Source: a virus
Virus record (IMG/VR): IMGVR_UViG_3300023184_000006
Coordinates: 1 to 35,791 of that record
DNA: 35,791 nt
Strand: one strand, 5' to 3'
Shown here: positions 25 to 17,804 of the stretch, in pieces
Layout of the letters: the number at the start of each line of letters is the position of its first letter
Position numbering within the stretch: position 1 is the first letter of the stretch
Translations under genes and position numbers: made by a program
The notes under the pieces: generated by a model
Database searches by the model: none
Told to the model about the DNA's origin: nothing
What the model saw: the letters and a program-made list of their open reading frames with translations, nothing else

Positions 25-2072
25 TTGGTGCCGCCGCCGCCACCGGACCCTCCAGTGCCGTTAGTATTACCTTGATAGCCCCCCGCCCCGCCGCCGCCAA
101 AATAACCAGATGCGCCGTAAGATGCGAATGTCGGCACATAAACACCGGCACCGCCGTTACCGTTTACGCCAACACTACCGTTACCTCCGCAGCCACCCGC
201 GCCGCCGCCACCACCCGCTGGGAACGGGCTTACCGCAGAAGCAAAGCCGCCGGAGTTTCCTTGCGCGCCCCCGGGGGCGGGAGTTCCTAAATTACTTGAT
301 GTTGCATTACCGCCAGCGCCGCTTGCTCCTGTTAGTGGCCCTGTTAACTGACCATAGGATTTATCTGTCGAAGCACCGCCACCGCCGCCGCCGAAAGCTA
401 CAAGAGAACCGAAAGACGAGTTTACGCCAGTCGCACCGACACCGCCGCCCGCGCCAACGACGGCAGTAATTCCTACTCCCGGGGTGACTGCGTAATAGGG
501 GATATACAAAACACCACCAGCACCGCCGCCTGCACCACCAGTACCGCCGCCGCCGCCACCGCCGCCCACTATCAAAACTTGAACGTAAGTGATGCCAGTA
601 CCGGGCGTAAACGTATTGCTGCCAGAAGTGTACTGCGTGAAATTCGTCACGATGTTTGGGTTAAGTGGCCTCCAAGCTCCAACGTAGATTTCGACAGTAT
701 TAGTCGTCGTGTTGTAGCCCATCTGATCGGTAGTGGGCGAACCCGGACGCCCAGCCGTTGTCCAAGACTGAAGTAGAATTGCGCCGCCATTGACAGCGAA
801 AGCGCCGGACGATCCTGTGTTGACCCCAAGCGCGGTAACAACGCCCGTCCCGGTTGTTATGCTAGACGGGGCAGCGCCAGCGCCGCCGCCCTGCACCAAC
901 GCGCCCGCCGTAAGGGCAGCAGACGTAGCCCATGTCGATGCGCTGTTGAAATAAGGCACGCCGCCTGACGTACCAGCCACTGTCAGGGCCAATGTACCGC
1001 TGGACGTAATGGGCGAGCCAGCAACGCTAATAATGCCGCCAGTGAAGGTCTGGGCAACGCTAGTGACCGTTCCCGTTGTCGGGGTAGTCCAGATCGGCGT
1101 ACCGGCAGTCGCAGAGGTCAAAACCTGCCCAGTCGTGCCAGCCGCCGTGTACGCATGAGCCGTGCCGGTACCATAGCCAATACCGCCAGCCGTAGGCGTA
1201 GCTGTGGAATTAGTGCCGCCATTGGCAATCGGGACCGTGCCAAGGCTTAAATTGGGCGTAGCGCCACCGCTGGACGCAATGGGGCTAGACGCCGTGACTG
1301 ATGTAACCGTGCCAGTGGTCGGCGTGGTCCAGGTTGGCGTACCAGCGCCCGCAGATGTCAGGACTTGGCCCGTCGTGCCAGCCGCAGAAAAGCCATAAGC
1401 CGTGCCAGTACCATACGGGACCGCGCCCGCTGTCGGGGTTGCCGTGCCAGCCGTGCCGCCATTGGCTATAGCAACCGTGCCAGTCAGGCTCAAATTAGGC
1501 GTCGCCCCGCCGCTAGAGGCTAGGGGGCTAGACGCTGTGACCGACGTAACCGTGCCGGTGTCCGGGGCCGATATCGTTATCGTGCCATGCCCATTGGTGA
1601 TCGTGACGCCCGTGCCAGCCGTCAAGGTAGCAGCCGTCAAAGTATTGCCGGTGGTATTGCCAATAAGAAGCTGGCCGTCCGTATAGGAAGTCTGGCCGGT
1701 GCCGCCATGAGCAACGTCAACCGTGCCGGTCAGGCTGATATTGGGGGCCGTACCGCCGCTTGAGGCAATAGGGCTAGACGCCGTGACGCCCGTAACTGTG
1801 CCATTCTCAGGCGCAGACAACGTGATCCCGCCAGCCGTATTGGTGATTGTCATGCCGGTGCCAGCCGTCAGATTGGCAACCGTGTAGCCAGTTCCATTGC
1901 CAATTAGCAGTTGGCCGTTGGCCGGTACGCTTGTCGTGTTTGTACCGCCGTTGGCTATAGGCAACGTGCCGGTGACATCATGCGTGTCGTTCCAATTGGA
2001 CGGGCGGACAACCGTTGCGTCCGCGCCGTCTGGAATGGCTGATACAAACTTGTGCGTTAGCGATAGCGTCAC
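1..2072 (-). CDS. Tail fibre / glycine-rich adhesin, N-terminal and main part (continues at right edge)
   Basis: The frame is open from a GTG at 2072-2070, which overlaps the portal TGA as GTGA, to the left edge. It continues at 35791-35683 to a TAG, giving about 718 aa in all. The N-terminus is hydrophilic. About 600 nt follow that encode roughly 80-residue repeats with the core ANGGT...TASSPIASSGG, as in repetitive phage fibre shafts. The C-terminal third is extremely Gly-rich (QVLIVGGGGGGGG and many GGGG runs), resembling the Gly-rich tip domains of tail-fibre adhesins. It lies directly downstream of the portal in the late block. It probably forms or tips a receptor-binding fibre. Length and repeats support a fibre; the exact role (main fibre or tip adhesin) is inferred. 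Confidence 0.85.
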   Translation of the reverse strand, partial: MTLSLTHKFVSAIPDGADATVVRPSNWNDTHDVTGTLPIANGGTNTTSVPANGQLLIGNGTGYTVANLTAGTGMTITNTAGGITLSAPENGTVTGVTASSPIASSGGTAPNISLTGTVDVAHGGTGQTSYTDGQLLIGNTTGNTLTAATLTAGTGVTITNGHGTITISAPDTGTVTSVTASSPLASSGGATPNLSLTGTVAIANGGTAGTATPTAGAVPYGTGTAYGFSAAGTTGQVLTSAGAGTPTWTTPTTGTVTSVTASSPIASSGGATPNLSLGTVPIANGGTNSTATPTAGGIGYGTGTAHAYTAAGTTGQVLTSATAGTPIWTTPTTGTVTSVAQTFTGGIISVAGSPITSSGTLALTVAGTSGGVPYFNSASTWATSAALTAGALVQGGGAGAAPSSITTGTGVVTALGVNTGSSGAFAVNGGAILLQSWTTAGRPGSPTTDQMGYNTTTNTVEIYVGAWRPLNPNIVTNFTQYTSGSNTFTPGTGITYVQVLIVGGGGGGGGTGGAGGGAGGVLYIPYYAVTPGVGITAVVGAGGGVGATGVNSSFGSLVAFGGGGGGASTDKSYGQLTGPLTGASGAGGNATSSNLGTPAPGGAQGNSGGFASAVSPFPAGGGGGAGGCGGNGSVGVNGNGGAGVYVPTFASYGASGYFGGGGAGGYQGNTNGTGGSGGGGGTNTAGTANT
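1215..1949 (-). repeat. Approximately 243-bp coding repeats in the fibre shaft
   Basis: A conserved segment, whose plus-strand core is GCCGCCATTGGC or close variants, recurs at about 1215, 1455, 1701 and 1944. Spacings are 240, 246 and 243 bp, all multiples of three. Each unit encodes a peptide like GTVTSVTASSPIASSGG followed by PNLSLTGTV and ANGGT. These are protein-level repeats of the fibre shaft and could recombine with each other. Confidence 0.8.
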
Positions 2073-4375
2073 TGCATCATCCCCTGCGGTACAGCCGGTA
2101 CAGGCTCAACGCCTAGCGCCCTGCCGTCAGGCCCCCGGACAATACGCTTGGGAGCGTTGGCAGCCTGTAGAACGTCATGGAGCTTCTGCATGGACTCACC
2201 GTGCATGTTCGCCATGTTGTTGTGGGCCTGCGTCATCTGGTCCATCGCCATGCGGACATTCTGGCCTAGGTCCGCCGTAATCGTGTCAGTAGCCGCCTGC
2301 TGGGCCTCGATCATGGGCAAGTCCATGCCGGGGTTGGCCGCAATACGGGCAACCATGATCTTGGTGGCCGCGTCCAGTTCAGACTTCCAGCGGTCAAACT
2401 GCTCCTTAGCCGCAAGCTCCTGCATCTTAAGCTGGGACTCATTCTGCTGCCGCTGGTTCTCAAGCTGAGTTTCCATCTGCATCTTCATCTGCTCAATCTG
2501 CATGTCAGCCTGTGCGCGGGCTTGCTGGCCCTGTACATCAGCTTGGACCTTCATCTGAGTAGTTTGCTGGTCAGCCTGTATCTTCATCATTTCAGGATTG
2601 GGCTGCGGGTTCTGCGCTTTCTGGGCATTGGCAGCAACCAGCTTATCCAGCGCAGCGTCAATAGACCCTTCCATAGACTGAGCCTGTTTAAACCCGCCAA
2701 TGCCGAACTTCATCATGTCCATCAGCAACGGCACCATTTCAGGCGAAGCCTGACCAGCCGGGACAGCTTCCCGCAGGAATGTCGAGAACGCGTTCAGGAA
2801 CTCCATGCGGTCCTGTTTGTTCTGGTTCTCGTCAAGCTGGACAAGGCTATCAGCCGCGACTTGAATACGGAACGAGCGAAGGGGACTATCCTGCATCAGT
2901 TGCAAGGCTTGCGGGATCATCTGCTGATCAGCAGGCGACATTTGGGCAGCCGCAGCTAGTTGCAGGATAGTTTCTGGTTGGAACTTAGTGCAAATTATTT
3001 GCGCTTTGAGGCGGAGTAGTTCGCTTGCGAATAGAGCAACGCTTTCCTGCATAGCGCGCAGTCGCAGTCCAGCATATTGTCCCTTGAGCTGTTGGGCCGT
3101 GGCGGATTCAGACGCAGCGCCAGCACCGCGAAGAATGTCCGAAATGCCGGTAATTTCATAAATCTGCCCCTTAATGTTGGCCTGCGCCTGATAACAATTA
3201 ATGAGCGCGGAAGCCAACGTTTCGATGGGAAGAAGGTCGATAGAACCCTTCAAGCCACCTTTCTCGCTGAAGGCCATCCATTTATCGACGGGGATCAACG
3301 TGTTGTTGTCCCCTTCCGTCAACAAACGCTGTAGTGCTGGCTGCGAAGCATCGTACACACCACGGACGCGCAGGGATTTGACTAGGCCGTCGATGCGGTC
3401 AGTCAAGATGTCGAGTTCGTTCGCCTGATCCTGATACAGGATAAAGTCAGGCACCGGGATGAGGCTGTCGCTGGTGGTCGTGGCATACAGCGGCTTGGCG
3501 CACGGGAAGAAGCCTTCCAGACCCAGCGGGTCATCGCGCTCGTCCAGAAGTTCCGCGTAGCTTTCCATGAGCCAGTAAACCTTATTGGTTTCCTTGTCCC
3601 ACAGTTCGCAGACCTTGGCCTTGTCGTTCGGCTTTTCCTTCTGGCCGTATTTGGTCAGGCCGTCCGGGCTGCTATTGAAAGAAATCTTCTTGGCGATCTT
3701 CTTGCCAAAGCGTTCGTTCACAGCGTCCTTGGACATATAAACCCAGCGCCAGACCTGCGTTACTTCTTCCCAAGTACGCGCGCAAGTATGGCCGAAATCC
3801 TTCCAATGAACGTAATCTGTGGGGGCGCACTCGTAGTCAATTTCTTCAGGGATTCCTTCATTTCCGGCGGTCTGGTTGTGGATGTCGCCTTGGCCTTCTT
3901 CGGCTTCGCCTTGCTCAATGTCTTCGGTGACTTGGTAGCCATCTTCAGGTACGTCCTGCTGTTTGATATGCGGGTCATAGCGGACCCACGCCACTCCACG
4001 CCCGCCAAGGAAGCGATCTTCCACGGCGTGACGCATAGATGCACGAAAATCGGGGTAATGCTCGATTTCGTAATCAAGAGCGCGTTCGATCAGCAAAGAC
4101 GCAACGCGGCCAACTGGGTCGTTGTCGCCAAAGCGGCGGGATACGTCCGCCTTGGGCAACCGGGAATAAACGGCAGGGATCAGCGTGTTGACATTGGACC
4201 AAAGGATGTTGAACCGCGCAGCCTCGTTCGTCATGCCGGTGCCAGTTCCCTGGTCATCCCGGTAACGGCGAATGATCTTCGTGGTACGCGCTTCCCACTT
4301 CTTGAACTCACCATTGTAGTTGCTGATGCTGCTCAAGAGTTTCTGGACAGTCGAATCGACTTTTTCCAATGCCAT
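2069..4375 (-). CDS. Portal protein (P22-like)
   Basis: This 768-aa protein should form the dodecameric ring at the capsid vertex through which DNA enters and leaves. The N-terminal half looks like podovirus portals, with an RRYRDDQGTGTG stretch near residue 36, AARFNILWSNVNTLIPAVYSRLP around 52-74, and a central region typical of the P22 type. Residues from about 555 to 700 are rich in Gln, Met and Lys with a long predicted coiled coil (repeats of QMKMQ type), which would match the portal barrel or core-binding segment. The ATG is preceded by AAGGAT at 8-nt spacing. It sits downstream of the terminase and overlaps the tail-fibre GTG. The length is near that of P22 gp1 (about 725 aa). Confidence 0.9.
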   Translation of the reverse strand: MALEKVDSTVQKLLSSISNYNGEFKKWEARTTKIIRRYRDDQGTGTGMTNEAARFNILWSNVNTLIPAVYSRLPKADVSRRFGDNDPVGRVASLLIERALDYEIEHYPDFRASMRHAVEDRFLGGRGVAWVRYDPHIKQQDVPEDGYQVTEDIEQGEAEEGQGDIHNQTAGNEGIPEEIDYECAPTDYVHWKDFGHTCARTWEEVTQVWRWVYMSKDAVNERFGKKIAKKISFNSSPDGLTKYGQKEKPNDKAKVCELWDKETNKVYWLMESYAELLDERDDPLGLEGFFPCAKPLYATTTSDSLIPVPDFILYQDQANELDILTDRIDGLVKSLRVRGVYDASQPALQRLLTEGDNNTLIPVDKWMAFSEKGGLKGSIDLLPIETLASALINCYQAQANIKGQIYEITGISDILRGAGAASESATAQQLKGQYAGLRLRAMQESVALFASELLRLKAQIICTKFQPETILQLAAAAQMSPADQQMIPQALQLMQDSPLRSFRIQVAADSLVQLDENQNKQDRMEFLNAFSTFLREAVPAGQASPEMVPLLMDMMKFGIGGFKQAQSMEGSIDAALDKLVAANAQKAQNPQPNPEMMKIQADQQTTQMKVQADVQGQQARAQADMQIEQMKMQMETQLENQRQQNESQLKMQELAAKEQFDRWKSELDAATKIMVARIAANPGMDLPMIEAQQAATDTITADLGQNVRMAMDQMTQAHNNMANMHGESMQKLHDVLQAANAPKRIVRGPDGRALGVEPVPAVPQGMMQ

Positions 4376-5099: not shown

Positions 5100-5415
5100 T
5101 GAAGATGCCGACAGCCATGACTTCTACGCCAGCGCCCGTGGTGATCTTCCACGCGCCGTTGGCCGACACAGCATTGAGTTCGATGTTGTACACGCCGGGG
5201 ATTATAGACGCGCTGGCCGGAAGGACAGTATGCGTGAGAACGCCCGACCCCGTGCCATCGACAATTACGACATTGCCAGTCGCGCCAGTCGTGACCGTGC
5301 AAATCAAACGATGCAGATAGTCGCCTACTGCGCCAGTCGTGCCAAGAACCTGCGCGGACTGGGATGCCGCCACATGCTCATAAAAATACCGATATGGGTT
5401 GTTTACGCCGCTCAT
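5092..5415 (-). CDS. Hypothetical virion-module protein
   Basis: The 107-aa protein is predicted to be mostly beta strand, with Thr/Val/Gly-rich segments (ICTVTTGATGNVVIVDGTG, GVYNIELNAVSANGAWKI). The ATG overlaps the TerL TGA as ATGA. The sequence looks like a small beta-sandwich structural protein. It lies between TerL and portal, where small decoration or completion proteins are sometimes found. Family not recognised. Confidence 0.6.
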   Translation of the reverse strand: MSGVNNPYRYFYEHVAASQSAQVLGTTGAVGDYLHRLICTVTTGATGNVVIVDGTGSGVLTHTVLPASASIIPGVYNIELNAVSANGAWKITTGAGVEVMAVGIFSA

Positions 5416-6749
5416 AGTCTAGCCCTTTTCTTTGTTTTCTGTGACGCCCACATGTCGTTAAGCGTCGCCGTATTAGTACTGCCCACAATCAATGGGCGCT
5501 CACTCGCAATTGACTTGCTTGGCATTTCCTTGCGCCACGCCACAGCCAGCATTCTAAACGCATCTGCCGGGTGGCTGCACCAGTTATGCTTGGGAGCCGA
5601 CCTGAATGCCTTCTTATCCTCGTCGTATTCGCGCTCGTACTGCCGTAGGGCCTCAATGCCCTCGCGGCAATTAAATTCGTCAAAATAGCACTTTGGCAGC
5701 GCCATACGCACAGCCTGGATGCCGTCCTGAACGCCAAGGTCCGCGACGATGTTCAGGTTCGTCATGCCAAGGTGTTCAGCCAACTGCTCAATGACAGATT
5801 TGCCTTGTGCAGCAAGAGTCTTAGCTCGTGCGTCATGAGGCAGATAGTGCTTGTCATAGTGGTAAGGCTTTTCCATAACAACTTTGGCAATATCAGCAAT
5901 AGAAGCGCCGGAAACAGCATAATAATCGATAACATGGATTTCGTTCCTCGTTACCTGATACCACCAGATGGCAGTATCATCACGAAAGCCCAAGTCCCAA
6001 GCCGTGTACGTCGGCAGGCTAGGATCATACGGCACATCGCTAATACGGTGCGCGTCCTGCGCCTCGCGCATTTCAACGCCGTAATAAGCGCCCAGAATGG
6101 CCGCCTCAAAGCTGCATTCGTATTCCTGCATATACTGGTCAGGCGTGATCTGGGATTTGACCGCATCAAGCTCATTCTGTGATACAATCTGGCTGTCAGT
6201 CGCCGTCAATCTTAGGAGGAACCACTCTTTTGGGTTTTTCTTGGCATCCGTGTAAATATCCCAGAATTGGTTCTTGCCCTTGGGCGTTCCCATGAATACA
6301 GCCCAGCCCTCCTTGTCAGACAGCGTGGGCCGAATGACATGTCCCCACACGCTGGGCCGGAAATCGCCGTATTCGTCTAGCAAAACGCCATCAAAACCCA
6401 AACCACGCATAGCGTCAGCGTTGTCAGCCCCAAAAAGACGGATTTTGGCTCCATTGATCAAATCAATCTGTAATTCAGCCTCGTTGGCCGATCTGGCGAT
6501 GGGTTTGCTATAACGCTTCAGGTAATCCCAGGCCACAGACTTGGCTTGGCTGCGATACGGGGCAATGTAGCCAAAAAGCGGATTTTCCGACTTGCAAGTG
6601 ACCGCCGCCCGAATGAGGTCATTGACGGCAGCAACTGTCTTTCCAGCCCGACGATGCGCCACAAGGCAACCCCACCGCTGCGAGCGGTTGTGAAACGGCT
6701 CAAAAGCGTCGCGGGGCGAGTATGCAATGGCTATTTCTTTTCTTGCCAC
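5412..6749 (-). CDS. terL: Terminase large subunit
   Basis: This 445-aa packaging motor and nuclease shows the expected order of motifs: Walker A AHRRAGKT (31-38), Walker B VLLDEYGD (122-129), an MGTPKG coupling motif (153-158), then the RNase H-like nuclease domain with TAWDLGFRDD around residue 249 and a C-terminal HPADAFR containing a likely metal-binding Asp. It should hydrolyse ATP to pump DNA into the prohead and cut the concatemer. The start is GTG, 19 nt inside the preceding TerS-like gene, with only a weak ribosome site. The length matches the short podovirus TerL class. Confidence 0.93.
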   Translation of the reverse strand: MARKEIAIAYSPRDAFEPFHNRSQRWGCLVAHRRAGKTVAAVNDLIRAAVTCKSENPLFGYIAPYRSQAKSVAWDYLKRYSKPIARSANEAELQIDLINGAKIRLFGADNADAMRGLGFDGVLLDEYGDFRPSVWGHVIRPTLSDKEGWAVFMGTPKGKNQFWDIYTDAKKNPKEWFLLRLTATDSQIVSQNELDAVKSQITPDQYMQEYECSFEAAILGAYYGVEMREAQDAHRISDVPYDPSLPTYTAWDLGFRDDTAIWWYQVTRNEIHVIDYYAVSGASIADIAKVVMEKPYHYDKHYLPHDARAKTLAAQGKSVIEQLAEHLGMTNLNIVADLGVQDGIQAVRMALPKCYFDEFNCREGIEALRQYEREYDEDKKAFRSAPKHNWCSHPADAFRMLAVAWRKEMPSKSIASERPLIVGSTNTATLNDMWASQKTKKRARL

Positions 6750-7200: not shown

Positions 7201-7230
7201 ATCGCACCATATTTAGGTGAATCCCCGTGG

Positions 7231-7259
7231 ATTATGGGCATATTTGGACGCGGCGTCAA
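7231..7259 (-). promoter_or_regulatory. Strong sigma70-like late promoter
   Basis: On the minus strand TTGACG (7259-7254) and CATAAT (7236-7231) are separated by exactly 17 nt, matching five of six bases at each box. Transcription would start near 7224, just before the first late gene at 7200. A perfect odd palindrome GACGC-G-GCGTC (7247-7257) overlaps the -35 box and spacer and could be an operator. Confidence 0.75.
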
Positions 7260-7302
7260 GATGTGGGTGGCGTTGCGGGCAGCGCAAGGACCATTTTGGG
7301 GT

Positions 7303-7331
7303 ATCTTAAAAATTTTGTGCAAGCAGCGCAA
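7303..7331 (-). promoter_or_regulatory. Possible secondary leftward promoter
   Basis: On the minus strand TTGCGC and TAAGAT are 17 nt apart, within an A/T-rich segment. Each box matches consensus only partly. It would feed the same late block as the stronger promoter downstream of it. Confidence 0.3.
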
Positions 7332-7410
7332 GATTGATTTTATGCGGCCCGTTTGTGGGGGGGGCCTATGTTTATATCGACCCCACCCCGTCGAAGAACG
7401 AAACGGAAAC

Positions 7411-7460
7411 GCGAACGACTCGCAGTCGCAGGGGCGTGGTGCGAATGAGGCGCAGTCGCA
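7411..7460 (+). repeat. Imperfect direct repeat, 30-bp period
   Basis: Two 20-bp units begin at 7411 and 7441 and match at 17 of 20 positions. Both end in the identical decamer CGCAGTCGCA. They precede the G-rich tract. Two copies are too few to call iterons, but regular spacing in a control region is suggestive. Confidence 0.6.
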
Positions 7461-7464
7461 TGGC

Positions 7465-7500
7465 GGGGGGGCTGGCATGGGCGGGGGGCTGGGGGTGGGG
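7465..7500 (+). other. G-quadruplex-type G tract
   Basis: On the plus strand runs of 7, 3, 6, 5 and 4 G are separated by loops of 7, 1, 2 and 1 nt, meeting the standard G3+ four-run pattern. Other long G runs lie nearby (8 G at 7357-7364, 6 G around 7511). Confidence 0.7.
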
Positions 7501-7538
7501 TATGAGCGCGGGGGGATAGGGCAAGGCTCTATGCCAGG

Positions 7539-7557
7539 GCCGGGCCGGAGGCCCGGC
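7539..7557. other. Perfect GC hairpin
   Basis: GCCGGGCC, loop GGA, GGCCCGGC: an 8-bp all-GC stem with a 3-nt loop. No U-tract follows on either strand, so it is not a classical terminator; it may be a structural or protein-binding element. Confidence 0.6.
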
Positions 7558-7586
7558 AGGACAACAACAACAAAGGCTTTGGGCAT

Positions 7587-7745
7587 GGCTTACATCCGGG
7601 GGGTAAGTACCCCCCCCCGGAATGTTGTAAGCCTTACGATTTGCGGGGACGGCGACGAAGGCTAACGAAGGCTTACATCGGCTTACGTTTCCAAGGCCTA
7701 ATACCCACACGAAAAGTAAGGCCAACATTTGCCGATGTAAGCCTT
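7587..7745. repeat. GGCTTAC repeat cluster (candidate iterons or operators)
   Basis: GGCTTAC or near variants occur at 7588-7594 (+), 7633-7627 (-), 7631-7637 (+, variant), 7660-7666 (+, variant GGCTAAC), 7670-7676 (+), 7680-7686 (+), 7722-7716 (-, variant) and 7742-7736 (-). At 7655-7684 three decamers lie head to tail with a 10-bp period: ACGAAGGCTA, ACGAAGGCTT, ACATCGGCTT. The 15-mer AAGGCTTACATCGGC (7668-7682) recurs as a perfect inverted copy at 7731-7745, with a 63-bp offset. Helical phasing and inversion are typical of origin iterons or cooperative operators. Confidence 0.7.
7598..7615. other. GGGGGGTA-AG-TACCCCCC palindrome
   Basis: Two 8-nt arms around AG form a perfect palindrome between the first two GGCTTAC copies. 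It could extrude as a hairpin or bind a dimeric protein. Confidence 0.6.
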
Positions 7746-7751
7746 GGCCTA

Positions 7752-7775
7752 GGATATGCGGGATTTTGCATATCC
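7752..7775. other. Inverted repeat GGATATGC/GCATATCC
   Basis: Perfect 8-bp arms flank an 8-nt loop (GGGATTTT). With a single bulged C the pairing extends outward to CTA/TAG. It lies just downstream of the GGCTTAC cluster and upstream of the early genes, so it may be an operator or part of an origin. Confidence 0.55.
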
Positions 7776-7969
7776 CTAGAGGGCCTGGAGGGTGACGGGC
7801 AGGGCCGGAAATTTCGGATTATTTATGCGGTATCCCGCTACCACTGCGTCAACCCACCGCATGATATTCCGCCATTTATCACATGCCCGGCCCGTGATAG
7901 GTATTGCGCCACGCGCAACGATATGGGCATATTCATCTTGTTGAACCGCCAACCCAAAGGAACCGCCAA

Positions 7970-8311
7970 ATGGACTATTCCAACGTCATAGCATCCGCCC
8001 ACGCTGCCGGCATGGCCGCCGGCAATGCGATAAACCCGATCCCCATGCACGTTATTGAGTCAGACTCGAAAATTTACGTTGTGCCGGACGGCCCATGCGG
8101 CTTTTCATGGGTTAAAATCAAAGGAAACACGGCATTTGGCAGATGGGCCAAAAAGAACGGTATTGCCCGCCCCAGCTATCCCAATGGCCTACAGATATCT
8201 TGCCATGAATTTAATCAGTCTATGGTGCGAAAAGAGGAATATGCCTTCGCCTATGCCTATGTCCTTCGCGGTGCCGGCATTGATTGCCATGTTGAAAGCC
8301 GGATGGACTAG
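7970..8311 (+). CDS. First early gene, hypothetical, 113 aa
   Basis: This soluble protein starts at an ATG preceded by AAAGGAACCGCCA, the leader shared by several early genes here; the upstream in-frame ATG at 7904 lacks such a site. The sequence starts MDYSNVIASAHAAGMAAGNA. It contains GFSWVKIKGNTAFGRWAKK and ends in an AFAYAYVLRGAGIDCHVESR segment. I do not recognise the family. As the promoter-proximal early gene it is a candidate host-takeover or anti-defence factor. Confidence 0.75.
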   Translation: MDYSNVIASAHAAGMAAGNAINPIPMHVIESDSKIYVVPDGPCGFSWVKIKGNTAFGRWAKKNGIARPSYPNGLQISCHEFNQSMVRKEEYAFAYAYVLRGAGIDCHVESRMD

Positions 8312-8580: not shown

Positions 8581-8603
8581 GGGGCGGCCTAACCCGCCGC
8601 CCC
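8581..8603 (+). terminator. Intergenic hairpin with CTAACCC loop (2)
   Basis: GGGGCGGC, loop CTAACCC, GCCGCCCC: a perfect 8-bp stem 8 nt after the stop of the 59-aa gene. It lacks a U-tract. The loop heptamer equals that of the hairpin at 8322-8350, while the stem sequences differ. Confidence 0.5.
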
Positions 8604-8630
8604 GCCCTAACCCTAATTGGAGAACCCGCC

Positions 8631-8864
8631 ATGATCCCTGCAAAGGAAGTATTTTACCACGCGTTCCAGAACTATGAGGACGGGCAAGACTATTGCGAGC
8701 CGGAAGAGGACGCAGACGGGTGGACAGTCTTTACCCGTACACTTTCGGCGGATCGTTCGGAAGAGTTCATCGTGGACGAAATAGACTTCGCCACCTATGA
8801 GGAAGCAAAAGCCCATGCTGAGGCCCGTGCGGCATTGCTAGGCGTTCCAGCTTCCGTTCGATAG
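8631..8864 (+). CDS. Small acidic early protein, 77 aa
   Basis: The start has GGAGAACCCGCC directly upstream. The product is strongly acidic (DGQDYCEPEEDADGW, RSEEFIVDEIDF) and ends in an Ala-rich helix. Small acidic phage proteins often act as DNA mimics or bind host enzymes, but nothing here identifies a target. Family unknown. Confidence 0.7.
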   Translation: MIPAKEVFYHAFQNYEDGQDYCEPEEDADGWTVFTRTLSADRSEEFIVDEIDFATYEEAKAHAEARAALLGVPASVR

Positions 8865-8935: not shown

Positions 8936-9292
8936 ATGGACCTCTGGAACACTGAAACCGCCATATCTGAAATCCCCGGCCTTGAAATTGATATTCCGCG
9001 CTGGATAGGCCAATACATAAGCCCATACGACATTGCCGCCATTGTACAGGGCGGATGCGCTTCCGGGGCGTATATGCCCGCCGTCACATATTACACCGCC
9101 GCCAAGACAATGGCCGAACATGGTGACGAGGTGCTGGACTATATAGAAAGCAACTACGGCCCATTGCCTGACGTAAACGGGCAGGGCTGGTCACAAATGG
9201 CCTCCACCTATCTTTCATGCGCCGTGGAGCTTTGGGCTTGCAGCATCGAAAGCGAATTGGAAGCATTTGAGCCGGAAGCGGAGGCCGCCTAA
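8936..9292 (+). CDS. Early hypothetical protein (DUF7222-like?), 118 aa
   Basis: Start chosen at the ATG after AGGAGAACACA; the frame is open 48 nt further upstream but without a site. The sequence contains DIPRWIGQYISPYDIAAIVQGGCASGAYMPAV and a C-terminal acidic helix. The ISPYDIAAIVQGGCASGAYM segment resembles a small phage family I recall as DUF7222; this is a weak recollection. The stop overlaps the next start as TAATG. Confidence 0.7.
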   Translation: MDLWNTETAISEIPGLEIDIPRWIGQYISPYDIAAIVQGGCASGAYMPAVTYYTAAKTMAEHGDEVLDYIESNYGPLPDVNGQGWSQMASTYLSCAVELWACSIESELEAFEPEAEAA

Positions 9293-11574: not shown

Positions 11575-13491
11575 CTAATCGGCCATTGCCCAGGTCTTTG
11601 GCGTTGTTTCCTGAATACGCAAAGCCGCCTTTAGGTCAGTCAGTGTGCGCCTGACGCCCATGCTTGAAGCGTCTGCCGACAGTTTAAACGTATCGCGCAG
11701 CACCTTTCTAAATTCAGCCTCAGTGCAAGAACCTTTTTCGGATAACATCTTGAGAATGAGGGCATCATACTTCCCGCCCTTGTAATTCTTTCGCACTGAA
11801 ACCACGGCGTCATGAAATTCAGCCACAAGGCTAGTGAGTTCCTCGCCGTCCTCGTCGCTGCCAAGAACATGCCTGTTTAAATCGAAGTACAGGCCCTTAA
11901 GCATGTCGCCGTCCTTCTGCTTGGTCACATCCAGCTTCGCGTTCATGGCCTCGGCATCGGCGCGATAGCAGCCGATTAGAAAGTCCACGTTGGCCGTGAT
12001 GGCAGACGACCCACGGGGGCGCTCGGTGGCATTGTGGCCGGTATGATGGATCACCAGCACCGTGCAGTTAAACGCCGCCCTGATTTCGCTATTGATCGTG
12101 CGAAGGTATGCGCCGATGTCGCTGGAACTGTTCTCGTCACCGCTGAAGGTCTGCGAAAGGGTGTCAATCACCACAAGAGCCGGAATTTGCGGCAGTGCAG
12201 CAATGGCCTTACGCAAGGCACCGATTTCGTCTTTGGCGCTCAGGAGCAAGGGAACGCGGCAGATATGGAAATTCTTAGGAAATTCCGCACCACAGGCTTT
12301 GTGCCAGGCGTCGATACGCCTAGCCACACCGGCACCGCCTTCCGCAGCCACATAGACAACGCCGCCCGTAGCGGTCCTGTGCTTTGTCCAGTCAACGCCG
12401 TGCGCGACTGACAGGCAAAGGTCGATTGCTATAAAGGACTTAAACGTGCCGGACGCGCCGAATAGCATACCCATTGCGTCTTGCGGAATTAGGTTCTTGA
12501 CGAGCCACTTGATGTTCTTTGTGGCCGCTGTGACTTCCTCGATTGTTTCCAGCAGCGTGGTGGAAACGATGGGATCAGGCTCCTTCGGCGCATACTTCTC
12601 AGCCGTTGACACCATGCGGGTTAGCTCAGAGCCAAACCGCTGTTGCCAACGGTCAAGCTGGGCCGGGTCGCCTTCTGGCTTTGACGCCAGCATGATGGAG
12701 CGTATAACATTAACGGTTGCGCCGGGGCGCAGCCCACCGGCAATCAGGGACGCGCTGATCTTGAGCAGCGGATCGTGATAGTCGCGTTCTTCCAGATTGG
12801 GCGTGATGATAGCTTTAAACAGGTCTGACGCATCGCCTGTCGCTTCGATCTTCGTCCGGGGCGTTTCGATGCCGCGCTTGATGTCGTCAAGGTTAAGCCC
12901 GAACGTCTTGGCCGCGTCAGCCAGTGGATATACTTCGTCAAGGTTGCAGATAAGCACCCGCTGCGTCCACATTCCCGTATCGCGCTTTTTGGTATTGGTG
13001 CCGATGGGAAGCCGGGCGTAGCGCACCGGGTTATTGCCGCTGCTGTCGGCCTTGATGAAGCCGCTGGCGCTCATGGCGTGCAGCAGGGCGTCGATCAGGG
13101 CTGGGTTGCGGGTATCGGCGTCTTCTGGGTCAAGAATGACGCCGACTTGGTAGTTCTCCTTGGACGTTTCCAAGGCATAGGAATAGTTGCCGACCAAATC
13201 TTTTAGCCCGGCTGGGCTAATGTCATCGGCCAGCAGGACGGCAAGGCGACCAAAGACTTCCTTGGATCTGCGCTTTTTGCCGTCGCGGGCATACATAACG
13301 CCGACAGAGTAGTAGTTATTATCCTCTTTGCGCTGGTCTATAACCGTCTTCTGGGCGTCCGTGCCTGTCCATGCAGACCCCAGCCAAAGGGCACCGGACG
13401 CTGTGCCGGGGTCGCTGGCGAAGGATGTAGTCCAGCCGTAGTCGTTCCGTAGCTTGCCATATATGGCCGCTAGGAACTCTGAATTTAGCAT
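11575..13491 (-). CDS. Primase-helicase (RepA-like replicative helicase)
   Basis: The 638-aa protein should prime and unwind phage DNA. The C-terminal half is a RepA/AAA_25-type hexameric helicase: Walker A GASGTFKS (345-352), Walker B ALVVIDTLS (438-446), then VIHHTGH (480-486) and RPRGSSAI (491-498). The first 200 residues contain a probable primase domain, with VGNYSYALETSKENYQVGVI and PVRYARLPIGTNTK resembling RepB/AEP-type phage primases. The start follows AGAGGGTGCA. It lies downstream of a Cro-like gene on the strand opposite to its surroundings. With no DNA polymerase in the genome, it probably loads host replication machinery. Confidence 0.88.
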   Translation of the reverse strand: MLNSEFLAAIYGKLRNDYGWTTSFASDPGTASGALWLGSAWTGTDAQKTVIDQRKEDNNYYSVGVMYARDGKKRRSKEVFGRLAVLLADDISPAGLKDLVGNYSYALETSKENYQVGVILDPEDADTRNPALIDALLHAMSASGFIKADSSGNNPVRYARLPIGTNTKKRDTGMWTQRVLICNLDEVYPLADAAKTFGLNLDDIKRGIETPRTKIEATGDASDLFKAIITPNLEERDYHDPLLKISASLIAGGLRPGATVNVIRSIMLASKPEGDPAQLDRWQQRFGSELTRMVSTAEKYAPKEPDPIVSTTLLETIEEVTAATKNIKWLVKNLIPQDAMGMLFGASGTFKSFIAIDLCLSVAHGVDWTKHRTATGGVVYVAAEGGAGVARRIDAWHKACGAEFPKNFHICRVPLLLSAKDEIGALRKAIAALPQIPALVVIDTLSQTFSGDENSSSDIGAYLRTINSEIRAAFNCTVLVIHHTGHNATERPRGSSAITANVDFLIGCYRADAEAMNAKLDVTKQKDGDMLKGLYFDLNRHVLGSDEDGEELTSLVAEFHDAVVSVRKNYKGGKYDALILKMLSEKGSCTEAEFRKVLRDTFKLSADASSMGVRRTLTDLKAALRIQETTPKTWAMAD

Positions 13492-13500
13492 TGCACCCTC

Positions 13501-13737
13501 TTACTCGAAGACGATACCCGACAGGTCTTGCAAGTTGATCTTAATGCCTCTTTCGTTGGCATGATTGAGCAGCTTGACCCAGTGGCTCTGTGGTATGACT
13601 CCATTGGTGCCGGTCTTGACCATCCAACGACTAACTGTGGCAGGGTACAGCTTGAGGATTTTAGCTGTTGCGGTAACGCCGCCAAAGCGGCAGACAATGG
13701 TGTATGCCGGTTCGCAACGGCCTTTGATATGCGCCAT
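13501..13737 (-). CDS. Cro-like helix-turn-helix regulator
   Basis: The 78-aa protein contains FGGVTATAKILKLYPATVSRW, a helix-turn-helix with the FGG-x(3)-A-x(3)-L-x(5)-V-x-x-W layout of YdaS/Cro-like and carph-isopro phage regulators. The ATG has AAAGGA at 8 nt. It is the first gene of the short leftward operon with the primase-helicase and is divergent from the recombination block. It probably binds the 13738-13873 intergenic region. Confidence 0.8.
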   Translation of the reverse strand: MAHIKGRCEPAYTIVCRFGGVTATAKILKLYPATVSRWMVKTGTNGVIPQSHWVKLLNHANERGIKINLQDLSGIVFE

Positions 13738-17307: not shown

Positions 17308-17565
17308 ATGAAAATTTTAGTCGAACAAAAGGACGGCGAAGGTTTTGAGGCATTGCTAGGCCAGCGCATCACGCTGTTCTGCATGAACTATATCTACACC
17401 GGCAAGCTGGTCGGCGTGAATGTGACTTGCGTTAAGCTGTCTGACCCGGCCATTGTTTACGAAACGGGCGCATTTGGTGACAAGGCGTGGAAAGACGCGC
17501 AGGCGCTGCCCAACGATCTGTACATTTCGACCGCCGCCATTGAGTCGTTTGGTGTTGTGAAGTAA
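17308..17565 (+). CDS. Conserved small phage protein, 85 aa
   Basis: The protein has LLGQRITLFCMNYIYTGKLV, VKLSDPAIVYETGAF and LYISTAAIESFG. I recognise this set as a conserved beta-rich phage family of unknown function. Its TAA overlaps the ATG of the repeat-encoded ORF that follows (TAATG). Confidence 0.75.
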   Translation: MKILVEQKDGEGFEALLGQRITLFCMNYIYTGKLVGVNVTCVKLSDPAIVYETGAFGDKAWKDAQALPNDLYISTAAIESFGVVK

Positions 17566-17804
17566 TGCGCGGATTAAAACAAAAATACAGGTTGGGGTCG
17601 TGGTCGGGGTCGGGTTCGGCGCCGTGGTCGGGATCATGGTCTGGGTCGTGGTCTGGGTCGGAATCTAGGTCGTGGTCGGGGTCGTGGTCAGGGTCGTTGT
17701 CTGGGTCGGGGTCATGGTTGCAATCGTGGTCGGGTTCTTGGTCGTGGTCTGGGCCGTGGTCTGGGTCTGGGTCGTGGTCGTGTTCGGGGTCGGTGGCGCT
17801 ATGA
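17565..17804 (+). CDS. Ser/Gly/Trp-repeat ORF, 79 aa (may or may not be a real protein)
   Basis: After a short start (MRGLKQKYRLG) nearly the whole product is SWSGSGSW-type repeat encoded by hexanucleotides. The ATG overlaps the preceding stop as TAATG. The TGA overlaps an ATG of a nine-codon remnant that itself overlaps the next gene, so ribosome coupling could pass through it. Repeat-driven frames are open by chance: the opposite strand is also open, giving Asp/Pro/His repeats. Protein status is therefore uncertain. Confidence 0.4.
   Translation: MRGLKQKYRLGSWSGSGSAPWSGSWSGSWSGSESRSWSGSWSGSLSGSGSWLQSWSGSWSWSGPWSGSGSWSCSGSVAL
17594..17795 (+). repeat. Degenerate hexanucleotide tandem repeat, about 34 units
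   Basis: Roughly 200 bp consist of variants of TGGTCG, GGGTCG and TGGTCT. The period is six, so all three plus frames stay regular. Such tracts are rare in compact phage genomes and could vary in length by slippage. Confidence 0.9.

Follow-up and report, generated by a model that had tools for sequence, protein, structure and literature searches.

A probable replication origin in a freshwater phage

The stretch of DNA analysed here (the window; 35,791 nucleotides, positions 1 to 35,791 of IMG/VR record IMGVR_UViG_3300023184_000006) is a viral metagenome record from a freshwater phage. Within a divergent intergenic region of about 760 bp (7213-7970), upstream of the small terminase (TerS) gene, it carries an array of short repeats which, on sequence comparison, is probably a replication origin of the iteron type; its likely reader is the winged helix at the C-terminus of the primase-helicase that the phage itself encodes. 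The array is composed of the following elements.

7587 to 7745, no strand assigned: iteron array, with exact GGCTTAC at 7587 (plus), 7627 (minus), 7670 (plus), 7680 (plus) and 7737 (minus)
7631 (plus), 7660 (plus) and 7716 (minus): GGCTTAC copies with one mismatch
7655 to 7684, plus strand: three head-to-tail decamers in 10-bp phase; relatives show the same triple in other letters
7668 to 7682, plus strand: 15-bp element, first arm of a perfect inverted pair
7731 to 7745, minus strand: 15-bp element, second arm of that pair
7595 to 7621, no strand assigned: GC-rich palindrome with a 9-bp stem, equivalent to the hairpin that relatives have in their arrays

A first-pass annotation of this DNA had reported a crowding of GGCTTAC, a run of phased decamers and an inverted pair, all of which were recovered. 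The five exact and three one-mismatch copies amount to eight in 157 bp, the decamers ACGAAGGCTA (7655-7664), ACGAAGGCTT (7665-7674) and ACATCGGCTT (7675-7684) follow one another head to tail, and AAGGCTTACATCGGC at 7668-7682 returns as a perfect inverted copy at 7731-7745, a pairing that is extendable to 22 nt at 86%. The genome-wide count proposed in that annotation gave 11 exact copies of GGCTTAC in the 35.8-kb window, where 4.1 would be expected; the array accounts for the excess, as the remaining six copies are at chance level. Five copies of any 7-mer within 160 bp were found in none of 1,000 dinucleotide shuffles of 7213-7970 (shuffle maximum, four), a significance to be read with the post-hoc caveat that the window holds two further 7-mer clusters (1234-1610 and 17595-17772), both of which overlap open reading frames with repetitive translations. 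The first (region 1200-1690) consists of CCGTGCCA-type repeats with a Val/Pro-rich translation, and the second (region 17565-17804) of GACCACGA-type repeats whose plus-strand frame yields a Gly/Ser/Trp repeat. The palindrome at 7595-7621, overlooked previously, has a 9-nt loop and sits among the iterons; folding of a 170-nt single strand was 5.9 standard deviations better than that of shuffles. The palindrome was not called as a terminator by an intrinsic-terminator scan, and Rfam and tRNA scans returned no matches. The array thus presents several short, regularly spaced direct repeats in non-coding DNA, one of the features by which iteron origins are recognized.

Conservation of the layout in relatives

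Conservation of GGCTTAC itself, which had been proposed as a gauge of function, was limited to one close relative: among the relatives first examined the cluster was kept only in L011, whose TerL is 93% identical. Such a test would have misled, because the letters change while the layout stays. When relatives were aligned at a G/C-tract element that they conserve beside TerS, about 25 related contigs displayed in the same intergenic place 10-bp-phased decamers, an inverted copy, a palindrome and then direct copies, the motif differing by lineage (e.g. TTTGTCCGG, CGTTACGG, GCGTCGCAAA, GCTATGGGAC). The motifs are distributed as follows.

TGTAAGCC: window
TGT(A/T/C)GCC: L015
TTTGTCGGG: L006-L008, L014
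TTTGTCCGG: L028, L112, L113, L127
ATGTCCGG: L013, L111
CGTTACGG: L104-L106, L108
ATGACGGGAA: L107
GCTATGGGAC: L031-L033, L102
GCGTYGCAAA: L172, L174, L178
GCGGGACAAA: L179

The best repeat lag was 10 in 16 of 23 arrays, over which the mean best identity reached 14.8 of 20 at lag 10 compared to 7.8-9.3 at lags 5-9 and 11-19; three contigs (L168, L171, L185) have repeats and a palindrome without the 10-bp phase. A blind detector requiring only a palindrome with an adjoining lag-10 repeat was run on 147 loci (1.38 Mb), many of which do not span the site, and flagged 23 of them, essentially all at the array site, and none in shuffled copies; the exceptions were a weak off-site match in L181 and an unclear placement in L163. 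Contigs with more distant homologues showed no array of the conserved type and a single weak detector match, an AT-rich repeat beside a hairpin in L214, and a DNA search of the isolate phage collection gave no match. The palindromes vary in their stems and share a YGTAR core in 24 of 34 cases of a hand-compiled list, compared to about 5% by chance. One relative, L134, harbors two complete arrays in one intergenic region (8598-8780 and 8990-9190), which carry TTTGTCCGG and TTTGTCGGG, and its TTTGTCCGG array fits its winged-helix class. The first 90 positions of another contig, L025, are apparent Illumina adapter sequence, indicating a chimeric contig start.

Cultured phages with an AAA_25 helicase also have a repeat cluster and a palindrome, located directly behind the helicase gene, with repeats that are not 10-bp phased.

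1N2-2 (Idiomarinaceae): GGTACA, 11 copies in the gap versus 4 elsewhere in the 15.6-kb locus
PB15 (Alteromonas): GGTTCA, 13 copies in the gap versus 10 in 28.7 kb
CGphi29: GGGACA, 6 copies in the gap versus 7 in 20.8 kb
CRP-831: TATACA, 7 copies in the gap versus 3 in 19.2 kb

In Rhodoferax phage P26218, CTGCTACAA-type repeats and a palindrome lie between the repA module and the gene preceding TerL, and no array was found in the gap examined in MW202867 (L244) and MW202711 (L245). The primase part is Toprim in 1N2-2, PB15 and CGphi29; since primase parts differ among cultured phages, the presence of the palindrome does not depend on a RepB'-type primase. Four loci (L244, L246, L247, L250) combine the same AAA_25 helicase and a similar gene order with different primase types (Prim-Pol, Toprim), the window's group having RepB_primase. 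Word searches of the P26218 and CRP papers turned up neither iterons nor a mapped origin.

The motif mostly follows the predicted winged helix of the primase-helicase

The proposed initiator is encoded on the minus strand.

11575 to 13491, minus strand: primase-helicase, 638 amino acids (aa), proposed initiator
12592 to 13491, minus strand: N-terminal ~300 aa, RepB_primase-like, with matches in 37 of 55 homologues
12028 to 12543, minus strand: AAA_25 / RSF1010 RepA-type helicase domain
11578 to 11778, minus strand: C-terminal winged helix, aa ~572-638, proposed decamer reader

AAA_25 was matched in all 55 helicase homologues, and the RepB_primase matches (PF16793) had a best E of 1e-7, the window's own copy lying below the reporting limit. 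The best solved relative of the helicase is RSF1010 RepA (1g8y), both by sequence (E 9e-10) and by fold. Profile searches with the N- and C-terminal domains gave no significant match to a protein of solved structure; the last ~70 residues were modelled as a winged helix (pLDDT 89) that matches the winged-helix proteins Fur, HlyU, MecI and Z-alpha with a probability near 1 and modest E-values.

In L006-L008, which carry another motif, identity stays at 60-90% over aa 1-560 and falls to 25-40% in the C-terminal ~80 aa. Because most pairs of homologues are saturated, the comparison was restricted to close pairs (helicase core identity of at least 80%), a restriction chosen after the all-pairs result had been seen. 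Among these pairs, mean winged-helix identity was 0.81 when the motif was the same and 0.58 when it differed, the former value decreasing to about 0.74 after near-duplicate pairs (L102/L162/L166, L007/L008, L006/L008) were dropped. Same- and different-motif pairs were separated with an area under the curve of 0.88 by the winged helix, 0.67 by the core, 0.61 by the N-terminus and 0.65 by the Cro-like protein, and the identity gap between them was at most 0.09 in windows within aa 1-580 compared to 0.21 over aa 561-620. Single pairs exhibit the same trend: L138 and L126 have unrelated motifs (TTTGTCCGGC and CGTTACGG, respectively), with 92% identity in the core, 95-96% in the Cro-like protein and 60% in the winged helix, and L147 and L164 have unrelated repeats, with 83% identity in the core and 29% in the winged helix.

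Several observations weigh against an origin read by this domain. The winged helices of L141 and L145 are 89% identical though the motifs differ, and those of L172 and L174 only 41% identical though the motifs are alike. When all pairs were included, partial Mantel tests gave no significant result for the winged helix, the pair statistics treat related pairs as if they were independent, and L134 was at first an outlier, the array later used having been picked to match its winged-helix class, which favors the hypothesis. In the window itself, the helicase gene is 3.8 kb away from the array, GC skew has no clear switch at the array, and the palindrome at 7595-7621 lacks the YGTAR core. Given non-independent pairs, a threshold set after an uninformative all-pairs test and statistics that are not tree-aware, the co-variation of motif and winged helix is a strong suggestion rather than proof. 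Of the 'initiator or operator array' put forward in the first-pass annotation, the initiator part is thus supported, both by an architecture that relatives preserve and by a motif that co-varies with the replication protein, and among the binders named there for gel-shift the data point to the primase-helicase, specifically its C-terminal winged helix.

Alternative readers of the array

The array could also be an origin or control site with a different reader, namely a small phage protein that binds iterons as RepC does and is swapped along with the array. IncQ plasmids do have a separate iteron protein, RepC (PMC6925257), and the motif comparison covered only part of the module's small genes; we nevertheless regard such a reader as unlikely.

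Marginally less probable still is a packaging site in which the small terminase binds the decamers in a cosB- or pac-like manner. The array adjoins TerS and TerL, lying upstream of the terminase genes, and the element TTCGACGGGGTGGGGTCGATATAAACATAGGCCCCCCCCACAAA (7352-7395, minus strand), highly conserved between the array and TerS, coincides with contig ends, as contigs L012 and L017 start within or just before it. This G/C element is a possible cos/packaging site or late promoter. Phage T7 has heptamer arrays near its concatemer junction, and the likeness is that of heptamer clusters near a phage packaging region. However, the decamers vary next to an unchanging G/C element, phages with unrelated motifs (window, L127, L138 and L135, thus few genomes) have TerS proteins that are 83-93% identical, and the repeats of 1N2-2, PB15, CGphi29 and CRP-831 are found behind the helicase gene. 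A TerS site was rejected because, in the few genomes compared, the motif does not co-vary with TerS; in contrast to T7, the motif mostly tracks the replication protein, and the element linked to the terminase is a distinct one that does not vary.

That the array is a set of operators through which the Cro-like regulator (13501-13737), a binder suggested in the first-pass annotation, governs the divergent promoters is highly improbable, and this reading was rejected: despite the divergent intergenic position and a weak P22_Cro match (E 0.003), the motif does not co-vary with this protein, given that the near-identical Cro-like proteins of L138 and L126 accompany unrelated decamers, that L138 and L133 share a motif with Cro-like proteins just 59-62% identical, that L007 and L127 have near-identical Cro-like proteins and different helicase C-termini, and that decamer triples head to tail beside a palindrome would be unusual for Cro. 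A candidate operator for the regulator is a different palindrome, TTGCGC-N-GCGCAA (7902-7922), which lies upstream of the first plus-strand gene (7970) and is similar in several relatives.

The surrounding genes are arranged divergently. Plus-strand early genes begin near 7970, and on the minus strand the primase-helicase is followed further on by small-terminase-like genes, TerL and the portal gene.

5412 to 6749, minus strand: TerL (Terminase_6)
2069 to 4375, minus strand: portal
14 to 16.5 kb: Sak4-like, SSB and Cas4-type exonuclease genes

Proposed mechanism and comparison with known origins

For an iteron origin read by the primase-helicase, copies of this protein would each use the winged helix to bind a decamer, all on one side of the DNA helix, an arrangement that would fit cooperative loading of a ring helicase. 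We infer that, after binding, these copies would load helicase rings at the palindrome, a scheme with precedents in the origins of RSF1010 (PMC6925257, PMC4434180), SaPI Rep and SCCmec Cch2 (PMC7581432) and pRN1 (PMC4234260). The RepA-like motor would then unwind the DNA, and the attached primase domain would prime for the host polymerase. The palindrome is probably the site of melting, loading or priming.

The iterons of the window measure about 10 bp, those of RSF1010 20 bp. SaPI Rep and SCCmec Cch2 are AAA+ helicases, whereas the helicase of the window has a RecA fold of the RSF1010 RepA type and a fused primase. P4 alpha resembles the window protein as a fused primase-helicase that binds short origin repeats, but P4 has a Toprim primase, another helicase family and a satellite setting. 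The closest parallels were found in the oriV of RSF1010/IncQ (PMC4538821, PMC6925257, PMC4434180), which likewise combines a RepA-family helicase, a RepB-type primase, iterons and palindromic hairpins. In contrast to the three proteins of IncQ, primase and helicase are here fused in one 638-aa protein, with a winged helix in place of RepC, and each array has one palindrome rather than the two ssi hairpins of RSF1010 with their GTG priming site, like palindromes also occurring in Toprim-type phages. Since the three-protein feature is absent, the array is classed as working like the IncQ, SaPI and SCCmec origins and not as an IncQ member. The SaPI and SCCmec origins share inverted repeats beside direct repeats (PMC7581432), and pRN1 ORF904 and related phage proteins join a primase, a helicase and a winged helix at the C-terminus in a single polypeptide acting at a stem-loop origin (PMC4234260, where P4 alpha is also discussed); however, the ORF904 helicase belongs to SF3, and the pRN1 origin is a 100-nt stem-loop without iterons.

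Significance

For many environmental phages no origin has been assigned, one reason being that the repeats do not keep their exact sequence between relatives. In the present group it is the layout that persists, the array can be located by a simple detector that needs no annotation, and a domain of about 70 aa is the probable reader. Together these provide a naturally occurring set of probable origins and initiators that differ in specificity and can be studied in vitro. The set might also help in examining replicon incompatibility between phages and the replication modules that phages share with plasmids and satellites. More tentatively, aquatic phages may possess a widespread one-protein, IncQ-like replicon in which decamer and winged helix form a quickly turned over code. 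Exchanged like a lock with its key, this code would provide every lineage with an origin of its own, perhaps as an escape from origin parasites or co-infecting relatives, and L134 would be a phage caught carrying two codes.
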